This document shows, piece after piece, positions 49,569 to 62,755 of a DNA stretch of 64,000 nucleotides. The notes beneath the pieces are model-generated. The model was not told the DNA's origin. It saw only the letters and a program-made list of their open reading frames with translations, and did no database searches. The translations under genes and the position numbers were made by a program. Position 1 is the stretch's first letter; every line of letters starts with the position of its first letter. Source of the stretch: Gammaproteobacteria bacterium (GTDB taxonomy: Bacteria > Pseudomonadota > Gammaproteobacteria > JAADGQ01); assembly GCA_015490755.1 (NCBI GenBank), contig WFXF01000076.1:1-64000 (forward strand), in the 5' to 3' direction.

Positions 49569-50183
49569 TCAAAACCATGCTTCAGGAATGATCAGAATAT
49601 CACCCGCTTGCATCTCTACATTGGCATCAATGTGACCACCACGCATCAAATCTTCAAGGCGTACCTGGAACTCCTGCGACTTGCCATTCACTTTACGCAC
49701 GATACGCGCTTCATTCCCTGCCGCAAACTCGGTAAGACCGCCCACAGCAATCATCACATCCAGCACTGTCATTTTATTTCGATACGGCAATGCTCCTGGT
49801 TTTGCAGCTTCTCCGACAATACGAATCTGTTGCAAATAAGTTCCCGAAAACTGGGATACAATCACTGTCACTACAGGGTCTTTAATATAAGTTGACAAAA
49901 CTCCTTCAATATCTCGAGCCAACTGTGTGGGTGTTTTTCCACTGGCGATCATATCTTCAACAAGAGGTGTTGAAATTCGCCCATCAGGCCTGACGGGAAC
50001 AGTGACAGAAACGTCAGGATTACGCCATACGAAGATATCAATGATATCTCCCGGCCCCACCAAATAATCCGATTTTATAGCGGTTTTTCCAAGGTTTTTA
50101 GGAGCCAGTGGAATATTGTAATTTGCACAGCCTGCAATAAAAACCGTCAACAGGCAAAGAGCGACTAACTGTATTTTTCTCAT
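49569..50183 (-). CDS. XrtA polysaccharide export protein (Wza/SLBB-type lipoprotein)
   Basis: 204 aa; lipobox FIAGCAN; DYLVGPGDIIDIFVWRNPDVS. Confidence 0.94.
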   Translation of the reverse strand: MRKIQLVALCLLTVFIAGCANYNIPLAPKNLGKTAIKSDYLVGPGDIIDIFVWRNPDVSVTVPVRPDGRISTPLVEDMIASGKTPTQLARDIEGVLSTYIKDPVVTVIVSQFSGTYLQQIRIVGEAAKPGALPYRNKMTVLDVMIAVGGLTEFAAGNEARIVRKVNGKSQEFQVRLEDLMRGGHIDANVEMQAGDILIIPEAWF

Positions 50184-50288
50184 TAATAAATTCCTTACGA
50201 ATACTTCAAAACCTTAATCAATATACTTTAATCCTTACATACTTGATCCACCGAACTCAAGTAAGTACATACCACTACATCTTCATTT

Positions 50289-53099
50289 TTACAATTGGTC
50301 GAAAAGCGATTGAGCACTATCGATTTCACCAAATGTTTTACTTGCAGAGGAGTTAATAAGTTCCAACAATGTTTCTCGAGCCTCATCTGTTTTACCTGAT
50401 TTGGCTAGAGCAACCGCTAGATGATAACGGGTATCGGGAATATGTGGCGCCAGCACCAAAGCTTCTCGTAATATCTTTTCACCACGTTTGATTTCACCTT
50501 TTTGCACCAAAATCCAACCTAAAGTATCAAGAATGGCACCATTTTCAGGCTGAAGCCGTGATGCTTTTTCTGCATAATCGAGTGCTTTTGAGTCACCCTG
50601 TTTATGTAATAACAAAGCCAGATTATTTAACGCAAAAGCATTATTTTCATCTCTTTTCAAAATGTATTCATAATGTGGCTGAGCAAGATCATATTGCTCC
50701 ATTTGCTGATAAACACTTGCCAACTCCAACCGCCCACGCACATCACCTGGTTGCGCTTTGAGCCACCCTGTCATTAGCTTGATGGCAGACTTTTGTTGAT
50801 TTGCTTTATTTAAAGCGATAAATGTTTTTGATGCCAATAAACCATTTGGTTCTTTTTTAAAAGCTTTCTGAAAAACCTTTGAAGCCTCTGCAAACTTATG
50901 CTGGGCCATCAGTAAATCACCTTCAAGTATATGCGCTGCATTCATATCAGGTGCGCTCTTTTTTAAATTTTTTACGACAACAGATGCAGCTTCCGGTCTA
51001 TTATCAGAGAGTTCCAGACGCACGAGCAGTGATGCCGCCGGAAAAAACTTCGGCTCCACCTTCAATGCTTTTTTCAAAGAACGCCGCGCCTCACTCAAAC
51101 TGTTTTGCTGTAATTGCAAACGGCCTAAACTTAACCAGGCCAAGGCTGACTCTGGATTTTCATTAACAAGCGCCTGATATGTTGAAACCGCTTGTTGCGA
51201 GTTCCCGGCAGCAAATTGAGCTTTTCCCAGAATCAGCAAAGCATCAGCTGATTTGGTTCCAATAGAAACGGCCTCTGCAGCCAAAGTTACTGCTTTCTCA
51301 GGTTCACCTTTATACAAATAGTAGTTAGCTAAAAGCAGACGAGGTTGAACTGCAGAAGCATCAGATTTTCGTGCTTTTTCAAGCCATTCTAGTGCACCTT
51401 TTTCATCACCTTGCTGGATTGCTAACCGTGATAGCGCTATCATTGAACCAGTATGGTCAGGTTTCCATTGCAAAATACGTTCATAACGACGGCTTGCTGC
51501 ATCAAGCTTTCCATCGTTTTGGTCACTGCGTGCTAAATTAATCGCTGCGGGTAAATACTCTTTTTTTACTTTCAGAGCTTTTTCAAAATAGTGCCGTGCA
51601 TCTTCTTTTTTGCCCAGTTCAAGATAAACAACACCAACAAGGTTTAAGTAGATCGGACTATTTTCAGATTTCTTTAATAATTTTTTTGCAGCAGTGAGTG
51701 CTTGCTGACTCTTTTTATGTTGTAAGTGTGCCAACACCAATAAAGTTCCCGCTTTTTCCTGAGCTTCACCCGACTCGACAACTTTGGTTAACTCTTTAAC
51801 TCCCTTGTTATATTGACCTTCTGCCAAATAGGCTCTCGCCAAGCCAATACGTACCTCGGAATTATCAGGTTCGACTGCCAGAGCTTTTTTGAAATAAGCC
51901 ACACCTTGTACAGCATCACCACCATGCATTGCAACTTGCCCAACCATTGCCAATAATTGTGTATCATCAGGCGCTTGTACTAATGCACCGCTTAAAGCCT
52001 CCATTGCCAATTCGGGTTGATCTTGCTTCATTCGCGTTTCTGCCAGCAGTTTACGTGCCGGAACATGATCGGGTCTGGCCGCCACAAAGCGACTTAAATA
52101 TTCATCCGCTTGCTCCAGGTTCCCTTGTGAAAAATCAATCGCCCCTAACAGTAAAAAACTTGGTTTATGATCAGGCAGAACTTTAACAACCTGTAACAAC
52201 TTCTCTTTTGCAATGTCAAAATCACCTTTATTATAGGCAATTTGAGCTCGAAAAAATTTAGGCATAGGATGATTTGGAAAATCCTTCAACAGAGCATTAA
52301 CTTCACTTAATGCTCTGTTTTCCTGTTTTTGTGAAAGCAGAGTTTTAACCAGCCCCAAGCGCCCTTGAAGCTTCCAAAAAGCACCATCACCATAATCAAC
52401 AACTGTTCTAAATGTCTGTTCAGCCATTGCATAATCTGCTGTCACGAAAGACAAATCACCTTTTATCAACCAGGCCTCCCAATTGCTTTCATCCACTTCA
52501 AGTGCATGTTCAATCTGTTTTTTTGCTCCAGCATAATTACTACCTTTAATTTCCAGCTTAGCTAAACCCAGTAGTGCCTCACTCAAATCTGCTGATTGCT
52601 CAAGTGCCTGTTGATATGCCTGCCGAGCCGATTCAAGTTTATTCAATCCGAAAAAGGCTTCGCCTCGAATAGCTAATAACTTCGCATTAATCTCTTTTGA
52701 ATAATCGTTTGATACATTCACTTCATCAAGCACTCTTTTGAAAGCACTCTGATAAAGGAGCGATCTTCCTAAATAAACTGGAAGCAATTCATTCGAAAAG
52801 CCTCCATTCAATGCATGCCGTAACTCCTTTTCTGCATTTTCACCTTGACGAATAAAGAGATAAGTTTCACCTAATAAAAAGCGTGCCTCTGTATTCCCGG
52901 GGTTTTGGCGTAATGCATTTTTAAATTCTATTACTGCGGCACTCCAATCACTTTTTGACTGGTACTCTTTGGCTTTTTGAATGTGTTCAACATCGGTCAT
53001 TGAAGTTCCACAACCTGCCAATAACAATAGACTTACCAACACCAGACAATAAACTTTAAACCGACAGTTACTAACCTGTTTCTTCATATATATAGCCAC
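50289..53099 (-). CDS. prsT: XrtA/PEP-CTERM system TPR-repeat protein PrsT
   Basis: 936 aa; lipobox LLLAGCGTS, many TPR units; position next to exosortase. Confidence 0.92.
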   Translation of the reverse strand: MAIYMKKQVSNCRFKVYCLVLVSLLLLAGCGTSMTDVEHIQKAKEYQSKSDWSAAVIEFKNALRQNPGNTEARFLLGETYLFIRQGENAEKELRHALNGGFSNELLPVYLGRSLLYQSAFKRVLDEVNVSNDYSKEINAKLLAIRGEAFFGLNKLESARQAYQQALEQSADLSEALLGLAKLEIKGSNYAGAKKQIEHALEVDESNWEAWLIKGDLSFVTADYAMAEQTFRTVVDYGDGAFWKLQGRLGLVKTLLSQKQENRALSEVNALLKDFPNHPMPKFFRAQIAYNKGDFDIAKEKLLQVVKVLPDHKPSFLLLGAIDFSQGNLEQADEYLSRFVAARPDHVPARKLLAETRMKQDQPELAMEALSGALVQAPDDTQLLAMVGQVAMHGGDAVQGVAYFKKALAVEPDNSEVRIGLARAYLAEGQYNKGVKELTKVVESGEAQEKAGTLLVLAHLQHKKSQQALTAAKKLLKKSENSPIYLNLVGVVYLELGKKEDARHYFEKALKVKKEYLPAAINLARSDQNDGKLDAASRRYERILQWKPDHTGSMIALSRLAIQQGDEKGALEWLEKARKSDASAVQPRLLLANYYLYKGEPEKAVTLAAEAVSIGTKSADALLILGKAQFAAGNSQQAVSTYQALVNENPESALAWLSLGRLQLQQNSLSEARRSLKKALKVEPKFFPAASLLVRLELSDNRPEAASVVVKNLKKSAPDMNAAHILEGDLLMAQHKFAEASKVFQKAFKKEPNGLLASKTFIALNKANQQKSAIKLMTGWLKAQPGDVRGRLELASVYQQMEQYDLAQPHYEYILKRDENNAFALNNLALLLHKQGDSKALDYAEKASRLQPENGAILDTLGWILVQKGEIKRGEKILREALVLAPHIPDTRYHLAVALAKSGKTDEARETLLELINSSASKTFGEIDSAQSLFDQL

Positions 53100-53136
53100 G
53101 CTTAACCACTCCCTTTAACCTCTGAATGTAAATTTT

Positions 53137-54681
53137 TTATATACCATCAATTGTTTTTTCATAGATAACCAGACTATCCTCAAGAAACTGCCTCAAACTA
53201 TTTTGACTTGTCTCATACGCAGTTCCCCGATCTACCGCAACCATAAAGACTGTGATTTCCGGTTTTCCAAAAAATACACCTATAACATTTAAAGCTTTTG
53301 CAATGTATGGGTTAACGAGGCGCTGACCTTGAAGGTAATACCAACGCCATACAATTTTTTCTTTTCCTGAAAGTGACCTGATCAGACTCTCTTCCACATT
53401 AAGAGAGATACCTTCCGACAAAACAATCTCAGATTTTTTTTGAGAAAAAACTTTCCACTGCTTACCGTCATAAACCTTGTTATCATCACTCACAGCTTCT
53501 CTACCCTGCTCTTGTCTGGCAAAATATGAGATATAGAGGGAGATTTTCTGACTCTCATCACCTCTATACATCTTTGAGAAAACAACATCCCCTTGTTGAA
53601 TCACTGGCTTCCAGGCTTCACTGTTACTTGCAGAGACTTCTTGCCAACCTGAAAAAGGAACCGGAAGATCTATTTCGTCAAGTGTACTGCTCCTATTTTT
53701 CATATCTGAATACGCAAATACAGCAGGGCCTGTCGCAACAGCAATAAATAACAAAAATAAAATAAAAATATCTGGCGTTTTTTTCAATGGTGATTTCTGG
53801 TCTAAAAAATCCTTCTTTCGTGGTGACATATAGTTATAAAAATGATCGGGAAACAGGCGATTAGTTACAAATAGATAGGCAAAAAAACCCACCATAAAAA
53901 GTACCCACCCCAACGAAACATGCTCTACAGTAATAAAGTAATGCTGCATAGCAGTTTTCTGCCCCATCCAGATAATAATGAAAACCCGTAATATATTTGC
54001 AACAAAAGCAATTAAGGCAATACAAACAATATTAATCAGCCACGCGACTGGCACCATTCGATTAAACCACGACATCAAAACTGCTAACGTCACACCGACT
54101 ACAAACTGATTCACCCCACTACATCCCGGTGTAACTTCAAAGACCCCAGCTGGAATCGTAATCAAAAAGCCATCTAAAAAAGCAGGTAAACCTGTTAAAT
54201 TAAGTAAAGTATCGACTACCAGAGCTGTTCCTATTTGAAGTAAGCTACCAACTTCTCCAAAAACAGGCATAACCAACAATAACAACAGAAGAGGAGTGAG
54301 AAAAAAAGATGCACTCTTCCAGCCCAGCAAACCATATAAAATAGAACCTATCAACATCAAAAAGCTCAATAGCTGAACAATTTGAACATGCCCCAGCTTT
54401 GCTAAAAGCCATAAAAAAGAGACAAGCAAAATAAGTAAAGCACCACTTAGACTTGGTTGCAAAACAATTTTATGGCTCAAGCTTCGCCATTGCTGTGCAA
54501 ATACAAAAATGGCAATCCCAAGCATAAAAAAGCCGTGCGAATAGGGCGTTTCAAGTGTCATCGCCCATATATCCTGCAACGGGGTTAGCGTCGACCAGTA
54601 AAGCCAGACAGCCCATACAACAAGCAAAAACAGGATATTAACAGGCTTCAACAATGCATTAATTTTTTCTTCTTTCATCAA
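53137..54681 (-). CDS. xrtA: Exosortase (A type) with C-terminal EpsI domain
   Basis: 514 aa; PGCSGVNQF (Cys187), ANILRVF (Arg), VEHVSLGW (His); EpsI-like C-terminus (WRWYYLQGQRLVNPYIAKAL). Confidence 0.9.
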   Translation of the reverse strand: MMKEEKINALLKPVNILFLLVVWAVWLYWSTLTPLQDIWAMTLETPYSHGFFMLGIAIFVFAQQWRSLSHKIVLQPSLSGALLILLVSFLWLLAKLGHVQIVQLLSFLMLIGSILYGLLGWKSASFFLTPLLLLLLVMPVFGEVGSLLQIGTALVVDTLLNLTGLPAFLDGFLITIPAGVFEVTPGCSGVNQFVVGVTLAVLMSWFNRMVPVAWLINIVCIALIAFVANILRVFIIIWMGQKTAMQHYFITVEHVSLGWVLFMVGFFAYLFVTNRLFPDHFYNYMSPRKKDFLDQKSPLKKTPDIFILFLLFIAVATGPAVFAYSDMKNRSSTLDEIDLPVPFSGWQEVSASNSEAWKPVIQQGDVVFSKMYRGDESQKISLYISYFARQEQGREAVSDDNKVYDGKQWKVFSQKKSEIVLSEGISLNVEESLIRSLSGKEKIVWRWYYLQGQRLVNPYIAKALNVIGVFFGKPEITVFMVAVDRGTAYETSQNSLRQFLEDSLVIYEKTIDGI

Positions 54682-54797
54682 TAAATAACAACAATCTGAT
54701 TACTCATCCTGAATAAAACTCCAATTTGTACTGTATTTAAACCTGTATGATTAACCCAGCTTATAATTATTGATTCAGGCATAGTATTTAAACAAAG

Positions 54798-56150
54798 CTA
54801 CTCTTTCATGGAAAACTTATCCATCAACGTATAGAGCGTTGGGCGACTGATCCCTAGCATCTCCGCCGCCTGAGAAATATTATCCTGACATAGGCCCAGC
54901 ACACGAAGTACAGCCTGACGTTCTGCATTATCACGAACTTCCCGCAAATTAAAAGGGGTTGAATTTTCGTTGGCAGATAATTCAAGATCATCAGCAGTCA
55001 CCTGACTGCTATCAGACATAATCACTGCACGTTTAACGCGATTCTCCAGCTCACGCACATTACCTGGCCAGCTGTAGGACTCAATTGCTGTTAAAGCATC
55101 CTGACTAAACCCACGAAGTTTGCGGTTGTATTGTGTGCTAAATCTTTCAAGAATAGTTCGGGCAATAAGAACAGCATCGCCTTGCCGCTCTTTTAAAAGA
55201 GGTATTTCTATATTAACCTCACTAATACGATAATACAAATCTTCCCTGAATGTCTCTTTTTCAATCATTGACATAATGTTTTGATGTGTCGCACATACGA
55301 CTCGTACATCAACTGGAATTTCACTGTGCCCTCCCAAACGCTCTACAACACGCTCTTGCAAAAAACGTAACAGTTTGGCTTGTAATGGTAATGGCAAATC
55401 ACCCACCTCATCCAGAAAAAGCGTACCGCCATTTGCATGCTCAATTTTCCCAATCGTTTGTTTGGTCGCACCTGTAAAAGCGCCTTTTTCATAGCCAAAC
55501 AACTCACTTTCAAGTAAAGCATCAGGGATTGCTGCGCAATTAATAGCTACAAATCTGTTTTTTGAACGCGGACTCAAATCATGCAGAGCTCGTGCAATTA
55601 ACTCTTTGCCTGTACCACTTGCACCCAGAACAAGCGTTGTAATATCACAAGGTGCAATTTTCTCAACCGTACGGCATATTTTAAGCATTTGCGGGCTATT
55701 AGAGATAACATTTTGTAATACTGCCCCCTCTTTTTTTTGCATTAGCTGGCGATTTTCTTGCTCTAATTTATGCAGCTGGTAGGCTCTCGCTATAATTAAA
55801 GCAAGCACTTCCGAATCAATTGGCTTTTGGTAAAAATCATAAGCACCCATACCAATGGCACGTACAGCGCTATCTCGCTCTTCATTACCTGTCACCATAA
55901 TTACTTTTGTATCAGGTGCCAGGGAAAGTATCTGTTCTAATGTTGCAAAGCCTTCTGTCGAACCATCAGCATCAGGTGGCAACCCCAAGTCCAATGTAAC
56001 AACTTGTGGCTCATAACGTCGCAAACACGCCAATGCCTCCTCTCGCTTACCTGCGATCTGCACATCAAAATCGTCAAAACACCAACGCAACTGGCTCTGC
56101 AAACCAGGGTCATCTTCTACAATAAGCAACCGTTTTTTATTTTTTTTCAA
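54798..56150 (-). CDS. prsR: PEP-CTERM-box response regulator PrsR (sigma54-dependent)
   Basis: 450 aa; receiver VVTLDLGLPPDADG, GASGTGKELIARALH, GAFTGATK, Fis-type HTH. Confidence 0.95.
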   Translation of the reverse strand: MKKNKKRLLIVEDDPGLQSQLRWCFDDFDVQIAGKREEALACLRRYEPQVVTLDLGLPPDADGSTEGFATLEQILSLAPDTKVIMVTGNEERDSAVRAIGMGAYDFYQKPIDSEVLALIIARAYQLHKLEQENRQLMQKKEGAVLQNVISNSPQMLKICRTVEKIAPCDITTLVLGASGTGKELIARALHDLSPRSKNRFVAINCAAIPDALLESELFGYEKGAFTGATKQTIGKIEHANGGTLFLDEVGDLPLPLQAKLLRFLQERVVERLGGHSEIPVDVRVVCATHQNIMSMIEKETFREDLYYRISEVNIEIPLLKERQGDAVLIARTILERFSTQYNRKLRGFSQDALTAIESYSWPGNVRELENRVKRAVIMSDSSQVTADDLELSANENSTPFNLREVRDNAERQAVLRVLGLCQDNISQAAEMLGISRPTLYTLMDKFSMKE

Positions 56151-56175
56151 AGGAACTCCCCCAATACAATGCGTT

Positions 56176-58251
56176 TTAATTTACTGGCAATCTAATAGTA
56201 AATATCGTGCCATTACCCAATGCGCTCACAACATCAATCTCACCGCCTAACTCTTGAATATAAACACGACTTTCATATACACCAATTCCCATACCTGCAT
56301 CGCCTTTAGTTGAATCAAACGGACGAAACAGCCGATTTCGTATAAACTGCATATCCATCCCGGAACCATTATCTTCAATTTCAATTAAAGCCATACCCTC
56401 CTTTTGATACAGCCGAATTTCAATACTCCCACTATCAGGTGTTGCCTCTTGAGCGTTCTGAACAAGATGTTCAAACACAGCAACTAACCGATCACCATCC
56501 ACATCAACCGTCAATGTCTTTGTATTCTCATGGCAATGAAGTTTTGGGTTAGGCCTTGATACAGACCTCAAAGCAATAACCTTTATTAGCAAATCATGGA
56601 GCAAGATTTTTTCTGACTCATTACTCTTAACATGATCGTGACCAGACTTTAGCTGCTTCAAAAGCTTGGTCATTTTGGCAACCGAATGATCAACTGTTTG
56701 AATGGCATCATCCACAAATGCCGGATTGTGCTTATGTTTTTCAGCATTACTGACAACCAGTGACAACTGAGCGATAACATTTTTCAAATCATGCATCACA
56801 AAAGCAGAAAGCTGATTAAACGCCTCAAATTGTCGTGCGTCAATTAACGCTCTACTTGCATCATCCAACGCCAGATAACTCGCAATTTCTCTACCCGCCA
56901 CTCTTAGCAGATCAATATCCTCCCAATTAAAGTCGCTATCCACTTGAGCTCTTTCCAATACAATAAAGCCCAGCAATTCGCCATGTTGAATTAAAGGAAC
57001 AACCAGCCACGCACTTTGACTGTTTTTTAACCACGCAGGAAGCACCAGACCGTCATAGAGCAAAGGCTTTGTATTATACTCTTTTAGATTAATAACCCAC
57101 TGCCTATCCCGCAAAAACACAATCAATGAACTATCATCCTGCTCCTTTAACGTATAATCCAGGTCTGCGTTCCAAACAGCCACCTGAGAGTAACCACTTC
57201 TGGAATCCTGCTTCATCCAAAGCACTCCACCACGACACATGACGCTATCAGCCATCACTTTAATTGCTCGTTCACGCAACCCATCCTCGCACCCCATAGA
57301 AAGGTTACGATTAAAACGCAACCACTGCTCACGATAATCATATTTATGCGAAAAAAGGTGTTTACCGAACAACACCTTTAAGTGTGCACGCAAGTGTTTG
57401 GAAAATATAATAAACAAAAAGAAAAGTACCGCACAAAACAGAAAAACAACCTGAGCAACCTTTCCCCAATCACCACCATAGTCACGCACATAATAACCAC
57501 CGATCGACATAACAATCAGGTAAGCTGCAGCTCCTAATAGAGCCGTACTATGAAAAATAATCCGCCTGGAAACAAAAATTTCAAGTGACCGCTCTGGACT
57601 ACGGAACACTGCCACAGCAAGGCAAGGTACAATTAATGCGTTAATAGCACCCCGTGCATTCCAGAACTCATGGTCGACCTGCCTAAAAAGCAAAGCATCT
57701 GCATACAATAAAAAATCAAATGCAAACAGCCCTCCCAAACCAAAACAGAGATATTTAATTGCCCAAAGACGCTCACTACGTACCGCACGAAAAAGATTTT
57801 CAACAAGCACTAATCCTGAAATGGCCAGCAAAACAAACACCAAAAAATGTACCCAGAGCCATTCGCTAAAAACCCCTCCCCAAAGCACATAATAAAGCAA
57901 GACAATGCCTTGAAAAAGCACCAAAGTGAATATACTGATTATGGCAGTACGGTACTTTACCGCAAGATTGGTACCACCTTCAGAAGAGCTCAACAATTGT
58001 AACAAAAAAGTTAACCATAACAGGTCACGTGCTGACTCCAACAGCAGCACAAGCATGTAAGTCTGATTATCAGATGTTGTCGCAGCATAACCAGCAACAC
58101 CCGCCCACACCACGGTCGCAAGCGTTGCCAATAAAATAATTGCACCCTGCAATCGACCTCGCCAACGAGTTAATAGTAAAACCGCAAAGATTAAATATAA
58201 AACAGCCGCCAGTAAATAACTCACTACCCCGACATTTATACTATCAAGCAT
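56176..58251 (-). CDS. prsK: XrtA/PEP-CTERM system histidine kinase PrsK
   Basis: 691 aa; N-terminal TM array, GAF-like region, FVMHDLKNVIAQLSLV H-box, DNGSGMD ATPase motif. Confidence 0.94.
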   Translation of the reverse strand: MLDSINVGVVSYLLAAVLYLIFAVLLLTRWRGRLQGAIILLATLATVVWAGVAGYAATTSDNQTYMLVLLLESARDLLWLTFLLQLLSSSEGGTNLAVKYRTAIISIFTLVLFQGIVLLYYVLWGGVFSEWLWVHFLVFVLLAISGLVLVENLFRAVRSERLWAIKYLCFGLGGLFAFDFLLYADALLFRQVDHEFWNARGAINALIVPCLAVAVFRSPERSLEIFVSRRIIFHSTALLGAAAYLIVMSIGGYYVRDYGGDWGKVAQVVFLFCAVLFFLFIIFSKHLRAHLKVLFGKHLFSHKYDYREQWLRFNRNLSMGCEDGLRERAIKVMADSVMCRGGVLWMKQDSRSGYSQVAVWNADLDYTLKEQDDSSLIVFLRDRQWVINLKEYNTKPLLYDGLVLPAWLKNSQSAWLVVPLIQHGELLGFIVLERAQVDSDFNWEDIDLLRVAGREIASYLALDDASRALIDARQFEAFNQLSAFVMHDLKNVIAQLSLVVSNAEKHKHNPAFVDDAIQTVDHSVAKMTKLLKQLKSGHDHVKSNESEKILLHDLLIKVIALRSVSRPNPKLHCHENTKTLTVDVDGDRLVAVFEHLVQNAQEATPDSGSIEIRLYQKEGMALIEIEDNGSGMDMQFIRNRLFRPFDSTKGDAGMGIGVYESRVYIQELGGEIDVVSALGNGTIFTIRLPVN

Positions 58252-58257
58252 GCCGCA

Positions 58258-59652
58258 TCAACGCCCACCCTTACTCCAAAGTACTGCTGCAACCGTTTGC
58301 ACAATAATCATCAAATCAAATAATAAACCATAGTTTTTTACGTAATAAAGGTCATATTGTAACTTTTCTCTGGCATCTTTTTCTGAATCTCCATAAGGGT
58401 AACTAATTTGAGCCCATCCGGTAATACCTGGTTTCACACAGTGTCTCTCCCCATAATAAGGGATATTTTCAGAAAACTGATCTACAAATTTCGGCCTTTC
58501 AGGACGTGGCCCCACAAAGCTCATCTCACCTTTCAACACATTAAAAATTTGAGGTAACTCATCAATTCGTAACTTGCGAATGACTCTACCCACTCGAGTT
58601 ATACGATCATCATCTGCAGCAGCCCACCGTACTTCACCATCTTTTTCCGCACCCACTCGCATACTACGAAACTTCAATACGCTAATCAGTCGCCAATTAC
58701 AGCCCACACGCACCTGTTGGTAGATAACAGGCCCACGATCATCCAGCTTGATTGCACATGCTACCAGCAACATAACAGGCCATGTGATACCGAGCACCAA
58801 CAGACTTACAACAATATCAAAAATTCGTTTACTATAAGAGCGTATCTGGCCAAAGCGAAAGCCATCTGAAAAAACCAGCCAACCGGGTGTCAACATTTCC
58901 AGCATGACCTTGCCGGTCTGCCGTTCAAAAAAAGCAAGCTGATCGACAACCTCATAGCCACTCATTTTGCAGTCCAGCAACTCTTTTACAGGTAACATAT
59001 CTCGCCGCTCATCAACAGCGACGATAATTTCATCAACCTGGTATAACTGAGCCAATGACAATAGATTAGTCTTTTCCCGGATCAGCCTCTCCTCTGAGAC
59101 ATGAGGGCTTTCATCACCTACCGGCACATACCCCACAATATCCAGGCCAAGACGATCTGTTTTACGCCGAAGCTGTGTTTCTATTACCGTAGCATTTTTA
59201 CCTGCCCCCAAAACCAAAACAGCACTTGTTCCACCATTTTCACTCACAAAATCTATCGTCATAATCCTTATAAAAACAATACTGCTCAATGAAATAAGCA
59301 GGGCAAACATGAATACACCACGCCCAATCAAAAGACCTGGGAACAGATAATAGATAAACATCAGGAAGAGCGCACCTAACAAAAAGCTGACACAAACACG
59401 CCAAACCAGCTCTTTTTTATCTGCTCTCATATGCCGTTGATACAACCCCATACCAATAATGCAAATCATAACAACTACAGCAAACAGAATAGCCCTTATA
59501 AATAGCTCACCGTAACTTACCCAGGCCACTTCACTATTTTCTCCAAAACGCAAAAAGGCACCCAGATAAACAGAAAGAACAAGAACTCCCAGCTCTAATA
59601 CAAACAAAAAAACATATATTTTAGGAACGTAATGTCTATGAACTCGATACAT
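58258..59652 (-). CDS. XrtA/PEP-CTERM system initiating sugar transferase (polyprenyl phosphate glycosylphosphotransferase)
   Basis: 464 aa; KRIFDIVVSLLVLGITWPVML, LKFRSMRVGAEKDGEVRWA, VGPRPERPKFVDQF. Confidence 0.94.
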   Translation of the reverse strand: MYRVHRHYVPKIYVFLFVLELGVLVLSVYLGAFLRFGENSEVAWVSYGELFIRAILFAVVVMICIIGMGLYQRHMRADKKELVWRVCVSFLLGALFLMFIYYLFPGLLIGRGVFMFALLISLSSIVFIRIMTIDFVSENGGTSAVLVLGAGKNATVIETQLRRKTDRLGLDIVGYVPVGDESPHVSEERLIREKTNLLSLAQLYQVDEIIVAVDERRDMLPVKELLDCKMSGYEVVDQLAFFERQTGKVMLEMLTPGWLVFSDGFRFGQIRSYSKRIFDIVVSLLVLGITWPVMLLVACAIKLDDRGPVIYQQVRVGCNWRLISVLKFRSMRVGAEKDGEVRWAAADDDRITRVGRVIRKLRIDELPQIFNVLKGEMSFVGPRPERPKFVDQFSENIPYYGERHCVKPGITGWAQISYPYGDSEKDAREKLQYDLYYVKNYGLLFDLMIIVQTVAAVLWSKGGR

Positions 59653-60074
59653 ATATAAAATATTAACTTGGTTATAGTTGTGGCAACTTAGCCAGATAAA
59701 GCTCTATTACAAGACAAAGCTCGCGTTTCCTTTCAACAACCTGTCAAGGCTTTTATAGAAACAGCAGCAAGACATGATATTTTCACTAATTAGAAGATAG
59801 ATAGAAGCTGTTGATTTAGCAGCATTTCCTATATTATATATATTTTTAAAGCATCCGTCTCACTTTCAGTACGATAAATATTGTATCTTAATGATACCCC
59901 ACAGGCACGGACGTAATACACCATTTTGATATTATTAAACTTTTCTGACACCTTACCGATTAATAATGGGGCTCTTGCCTAACCGCAAGTTAAGATGTGT
60001 CAATTGTTTCGTGATCGCTCCCAAGCTGATCCCAATAAAAATAATAAAAATAAGAGTTAAAAGTAGGAAAACTT

Positions 60075-60275
60075 ATGAAAGTGACTGTTTTCGGCTCAGG
60101 ATATGTTGGCCTTGTGACAGGAACCTGCCTTGCTGAGGTTGGCAACCATGTTATCTGCATCAATATTGACTCCAATAAGGAGGCACTTATCTTTGATGGC
60201 CGCAACCTGTTTGACTCTGAACTTATGAGAGAAGCCGGTTTCACCTACCATGCTATTGGCAGAAGCCAGCCATAA
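60075..60275 (+). pseudogene. ugd: Internally deleted UDP-glucose 6-dehydrogenase (N-terminal ~35 aa fused in frame to C-terminal ~30 aa)
   Basis: [35 protein letters not shown] + [28 protein letters not shown]: the two extreme ends of Ugd with the middle missing. Confidence 0.88.
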
Positions 60276-61747: not shown

Positions 61748-62755
61748 ATGAAAATTTTAATAACCGGAACTGCCGGCTTCATTGGAAACGCACTCGCACA
61801 AAAACTGCTGGATAGAGGTGATGAAGTCATAGGTATTGATAACATTAATGACTATTACGATGTCAATTTAAAACTGGCACGTCTAGACAAAATAAAAGAC
61901 CATAACAACTTCACAGAAGTTAAAATTGATATTGAAAACCGTGATGCTATTGCAGAAACCTTTAAAAAACATCAACCACAACGCGTTGTTAACCTGGCCG
62001 CTCAAGCGGGTGTCCGTTACTCTTTGGTAAACCCTCACGCATATATTGATAGCAATATTGTCGGTTTCACTAATATATTGGAAGGCTGCAGACACAACAA
62101 TGTAGAACACCTGGTTTATGCATCCAGCAGCTCCGTTTACGGTGCCAACACCAAAATGCCCTTCTCGGTGCATGACAACGTTGATCACCCTGTTAGCCTC
62201 TATGCAGCCAGCAAAAAAGCCAACGAATTAATGGCACATACTTATAGCCATCTCTACCAACTACCTACTACCGGGCTGCGATTTTTTACCGTTTATGGCC
62301 CATGGGGTCGCCCTGATATGGCGCTGTTTATGTTTACCAAAAATATTCTTGAAGGCAAACCCATTGATGTGTTTAATTATGGAAAGTGTAAACGTGATTT
62401 CACCTTTATTGATGACATTATCGAAGGTGTAACACGCACAATGGACAACGTATCAAAAGCTAATCCTGACTGGTCAGGAGACAACCCTGATTGTGGAACC
62501 AGTTACGCACCTTTCAAAATATACAATATTGGCAATAATCAGCCTGTTGAATTGCAGCATTTCATTGATGTCATTGAAAAAAATCTGGGAACCAAAGCAC
62601 AAAGAAACTTGATGTCGCTACAACCCGGTGATGTCCCGGAAACCTATGCGAATGTTGATGATTTAATTAATGATGTTGGTTTTAAACCCGCAACTTCCAT
62701 TGAAGACGGCATCGCACGTTTTATAGAGTGGTACAGAGATTTTTATAAAGTATAG
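61748..62755 (+). CDS. NAD-dependent epimerase (UDP-glucuronate epimerase-like SDR)
   Basis: 335 aa; [40 protein letters not shown]. Confidence 0.92.

Follow-up and report, generated by a model that had tools for sequence, protein, structure and literature searches.

Two types of UDP-glucose 6-dehydrogenase (Ugd) serve as references for the present locus: a TuaD-like long type, with the solved relatives 2y0c, 2y0d and 2y0e, and an E. coli/Klebsiella type, represented by the model PRK15057 and the structures 3phl and 3pid. Degraded genes of the kind that leave pseudogene remnants in bacterial genomes have been described for Rickettsia (PMC2374718). Our literature search found no paper that links UDP-glucose dehydrogenase with non-orthologous gene displacement. 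Here we describe a 66-residue open reading frame (ORF) in a stretch of 64,000 nucleotides (the window) from a gammaproteobacterial draft genome (2.63 Mb in 94 contigs, 99.67% complete). The ORF is very probably the pseudogene remnant of a long-type ugd, which would have been redundant beside a short Ugd and was lost by an in-frame internal deletion.

The 66-residue reading frame and its parent gene

The ORF comprises the Rossmann β-α-β start and the C-terminal tail of a long-type (~440 aa) Ugd, fused in frame (Table 1). Positions 1-36 of PF03721 match residues 1-36 of the ORF with an E-value of 9e-12, above the Pfam cut-off, and the NCBIfam model of TuaD-type UDP-glucose dehydrogenases matches it in two stretches (E=3.8e-19). 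A search of the genome with the intact Ugd of a relative from the same family (termed G002) aligned residues 1-35 of the query at 60075-60179 with 83% identity, and residues 412-440 directly after, at 60180-60266, with 62% identity and in a common frame. This two-ended in-frame match to Ugd is far above chance level. The codon alignment against the intact G002 gene is interrupted once, by 1128 nt (376 codons) missing from the interior. A previous sequence-only reading had proposed that only the two ends of ugd remain, fused in frame, with about 1.1 kb of the core missing and the frame, start and stop kept; the 66-residue ORF is exactly as described there, and the length of the gap agrees.

Both ends are homologous to one parent family and stand in the original order, and a relative has an intact ortholog at the corresponding locus (contig C181 of G002), as characterizes a pseudogene remnant. 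Assessed as a functional enzyme, the ORF matches PF03721 at positions 1-36 only, and the central and C-terminal domains are unmatched. The catalytic cysteine motif (GGSCFPKD in the G002 protein) belongs to the core that is missing from the ORF. The product of the stub, devoid of the catalytic core, should have no dehydrogenase activity.

Table 1. Positions of the ugd remnant and neighbouring features in the window
Feature	Position	Strand	Evidence
ugd remnant ORF, 66 aa	60075..60275	+	ATG to TAA; TuaD and PF03721 matches, codon alignment
Approximate deletion junction, AAG-GAG-GCA	60177..60185	+	Codon alignment, ortholog codons at both breakpoints
Divergent XrtA/PEP-CTERM-system glycosyltransferase (EpsB_2), conserved left neighbour of ugd	58258..59652	-	TIGR03013, 568 bits; synteny
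Upstream intergenic stretch, probable operon promoter region	59777..59952	+	Homologous to DNA directly upstream of G001 tviB
tviB-type UDP-N-acetylglucosamine 6-dehydrogenase, intact, 425 aa	60317..61594	+	NF011729, 649 bits, above cut-off of 592
Nucleotide-sugar epimerase, probably UDP-uronate 4-epimerase type	61748..62755	+	3' of tviB in all three family genomes

At the junction, the codon of Lys35 is joined to the codons preceding the C-terminal (L/V)IFDGRN motif. In the intact orthologs an AAR codon lies to the left of the breakpoint, and in some of them one lies to the right as well. A comparison of the breakpoints with intact ugd genes of relatives, as had been suggested, points to a possible short microhomology, namely an AAR/Lys codon common to both sides, judged from orthologs and not from the direct parent.

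The next gene downstream had been read from the sequence as a UDP-HexNAc 6-dehydrogenase, in line with its equivalog-level match to TviB. The epimerase that follows scores 111 bits against the TviC model, under the cut-off of 760. Upstream of the stub there is a weak promoter-like site at 59816-59844, and the promoter-like matches in this region are not clearly over those of shuffled sequences. The left neighbour of the locus belongs to an XrtA/PEP-CTERM exopolysaccharide cluster on the minus strand (49569-59652), which includes a PrsK histidine kinase, a response regulator, a TPR protein, an export protein and the EpsB_2 glycosyltransferase. The exosortase of this region (53137-54681) reaches neither the curated cut-off of XrtA (159 versus 208 bits) nor that of XrtW (178 versus 425 bits).

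The locus in related genomes and the state of the retained codons

The comparison took in two other genomes of the order, one of the same genus (G001) and G002. The latter, 91% complete, has an intact gene for a 442-residue long-type Ugd. Directly behind this gene come a tviB homologue, which shares 77% identity with that of the window, and an epimerase gene, and to its left lies the XrtA-system glycosyltransferase gene in divergent orientation, an arrangement equal to that of the window. Because the intact gene occupies the same place, the ORF is the result of a deletion that took 376 codons from inside the gene and preserved the frame. In G001, neither the long ugd nor the stub was found. 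The DNA upstream of G001 tviB aligns to the upstream intergenic stretch of the window with a local score of 92, compared to a mean of 34 and a maximum of 55 for shuffled sequences (n=300); therefore, ugd was removed with the upstream region of the operon left in place. Alignments of the 60 nt that precede G001 tviB to the ugd leader of the window and to its stub-tviB spacer did not score above shuffles and give no position for the breakpoint in G001. A single family thus contains ugd in intact, stub and erased form.

In G001 (region L092 1627-9965 of contig C2), the tviB-epimerase pair is separated from the XrtA cluster and has a SulP-type transporter gene on one side and NAD-linked NiFe hydrogenase genes on the other, so these two congeneric species differ by a rearrangement. 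The G001 glycosyltransferase gene sits elsewhere, beside a helicase-like gene.

The retained codons of the stub were compared to 28 intact orthologs. Among 33 positions conserved in these orthologs, the stub departs at two: in the VDID motif, Asn replaces the Asp, which we expect to contact the NAD ribose, and in LYDP, Ser replaces the Pro. Zero such departures are seen in 24 of the 28 orthologs, and none has more than two. The ratio of changes at first plus second codon positions to those at third positions, relative to G002, is 0.40 for the stub and 0.48 (sd 0.12) for tviB of the same genomes. The stub codons diverge like a coding sequence, and ongoing constraint is possible.

This divergence might be taken to mean that selection has kept the 66-residue product or its translation, acting either as a microprotein or as a leader by which the translation of the two downstream genes, tviB and the epimerase gene, is coupled or tuned. 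The start, stop and frame are retained together with a plausible Shine-Dalgarno-like stretch, and the spacing to tviB is just 41 nt; however, a recent deletion also predicts coding-like divergence, and chance alone keeps one third of deletions in frame. Moreover, invariant residues are altered, the search for RNA families and structured RNAs at the stub region gave no match, and in G001, where related DNA precedes the same gene pair, no stub is present. A leader peptide would be expected to be conserved as a short ORF, and no stub was found in the other two family genomes; among the matches listed for 369 gammaproteobacterial genomes, all lie in frames of at least 155 residues except the stub itself. 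We therefore consider a selected stub unlikely. The leader or microprotein role suggested by the sequence-only reading gained no positive evidence. More specifically, the inactivated enzyme gene might have been co-opted as a translated leader cistron through which tviB and the epimerase gene stay linked to the ugd promoter and to ribosome traffic, but this appears quite unlikely. The changed invariant residues and the coding-like pattern together fit a recent deletion followed by slight drift, with selection for the stub not demonstrated; from its codons, the stub looks young rather than functional.

A second type of Ugd and the loss of the first

The genome has four matches to the NAD-binding domain: the stub, TviB, an enzyme of the GDP-mannose dehydrogenase type on contig C19 (nearest solved structure: 1mfz), and a 388-residue enzyme on contig C77. 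The C77 protein aligns over its full length to the E. coli-type Ugd model PRK15057 with 693 bits, below the curated cut-off of 757, and its closest solved structure, at 656 bits, is 3phl, titled UDP-glucose 6-dehydrogenase, which we take to be the Klebsiella enzyme. The protein is thus a predicted Ugd of E. coli/Klebsiella type. Its gene follows a NusG/RfaH-like antiterminator gene closely and is convergent with an ATP sulfurylase-like gene (region L002 15-2606). The C19 and C77 genes were rejected as parents of the stub, to which they have no DNA similarity. A genome-wide search with the intact long Ugd found neither a second long-type ugd nor an orphan core on any contig. The search for another ugd, to which the sequence-only reading had pointed, therefore yielded no copy of the same type and one separate predicted Ugd of the other type.

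The draft state of the genome, with its 94 contigs, raises the question of an assembly error in which the core of a real, intact ugd was lost or collapsed. We regard this as very improbable: the 100-kb contig is continuous across the locus, no contig carries an orphan core, the completeness is high, and the stub is altered at invariant positions, as expected after loss of the gene. The concern is further weakened because the separately assembled G001 also lacks a long ugd. Hardly credible is the switch from a glucuronic to an N-acetylhexosaminuronic acid precursor proposed earlier, with tviB taking over as the next gene, since tviB already stands behind an intact ugd in G002 and therefore did not replace it, ugd shortly precedes tviB on two further gammaproteobacterial contigs (L016 and L008) as well, the predicted short Ugd is retained, and none of the three family genomes has lost the epimerase gene downstream.

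The short Ugd is also encoded in G001, with 85% identity to the C77 copy, and was not found in the 91%-complete genome of G002. Because the window genome and G001 differ in the flanks of the short ugd, one gain in their common ancestor is not demonstrated. Among 368 sampled gammaproteobacterial genomes, the window genome excluded, a long-type match was found in 5 of 32 genomes with a short Ugd versus 241 of 336 without (Fisher p=6e-10, uncorrected for relatedness); the query for the long type was the 66-residue stub, which may count some related dehydrogenases. The two types of Ugd largely exclude each other, which supports the replacement of one type by the other.

Loss of a redundant long ugd would then have proceeded as follows. 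Ancestrally, ugd, tviB and the epimerase gene probably formed one operon in this order, with the XrtA-system glycosyltransferase gene divergent from it, an arrangement that is observed in G002. The short 388-residue Ugd, observed elsewhere in the genomes of the genus, would have made the long Ugd redundant. In this species, a single internal deletion, its frame kept by chance, would have removed the long ugd; in the sister species, the gene would have been removed completely. The end states in both species are observed, and from them we infer the order and number of deletion events. The stub keeps the start region of the operon and may be translated ahead of tviB as a passive 66-residue leader. 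The locus provides a clear snapshot of the loss of one enzyme type where another of the same predicted function occurs, and cautions that a short ORF may be the relic of a gene even when its domain matches are good.

Comparison with known systems

Altogether, the locus presents no new system but an ordinary pseudogene remnant with an instructive displacement history. Compared to the intact long-type Ugd of G002, the ends of the ORF are homologous and share order, frame and neighbourhood; however, the ORF misses 376 of ~442 codons, including the substrate-binding and catalytic core, and has two invariant residues changed. The C77 enzyme, predicted to catalyze the same reaction as the long type (UDP-glucose to UDP-glucuronate), belongs to a distant subfamily with 31% identity to the long type over 360 residues and is not the parent of the stub. 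Similar to the gene remnants of Rickettsia (PMC2374718), the stub is a positional remnant of a gene that is intact in relatives. It differs from them in that a single clean in-frame deletion takes the place of several frameshifts and stops, and in that its genome has a second enzyme type that offers a reason for the loss.
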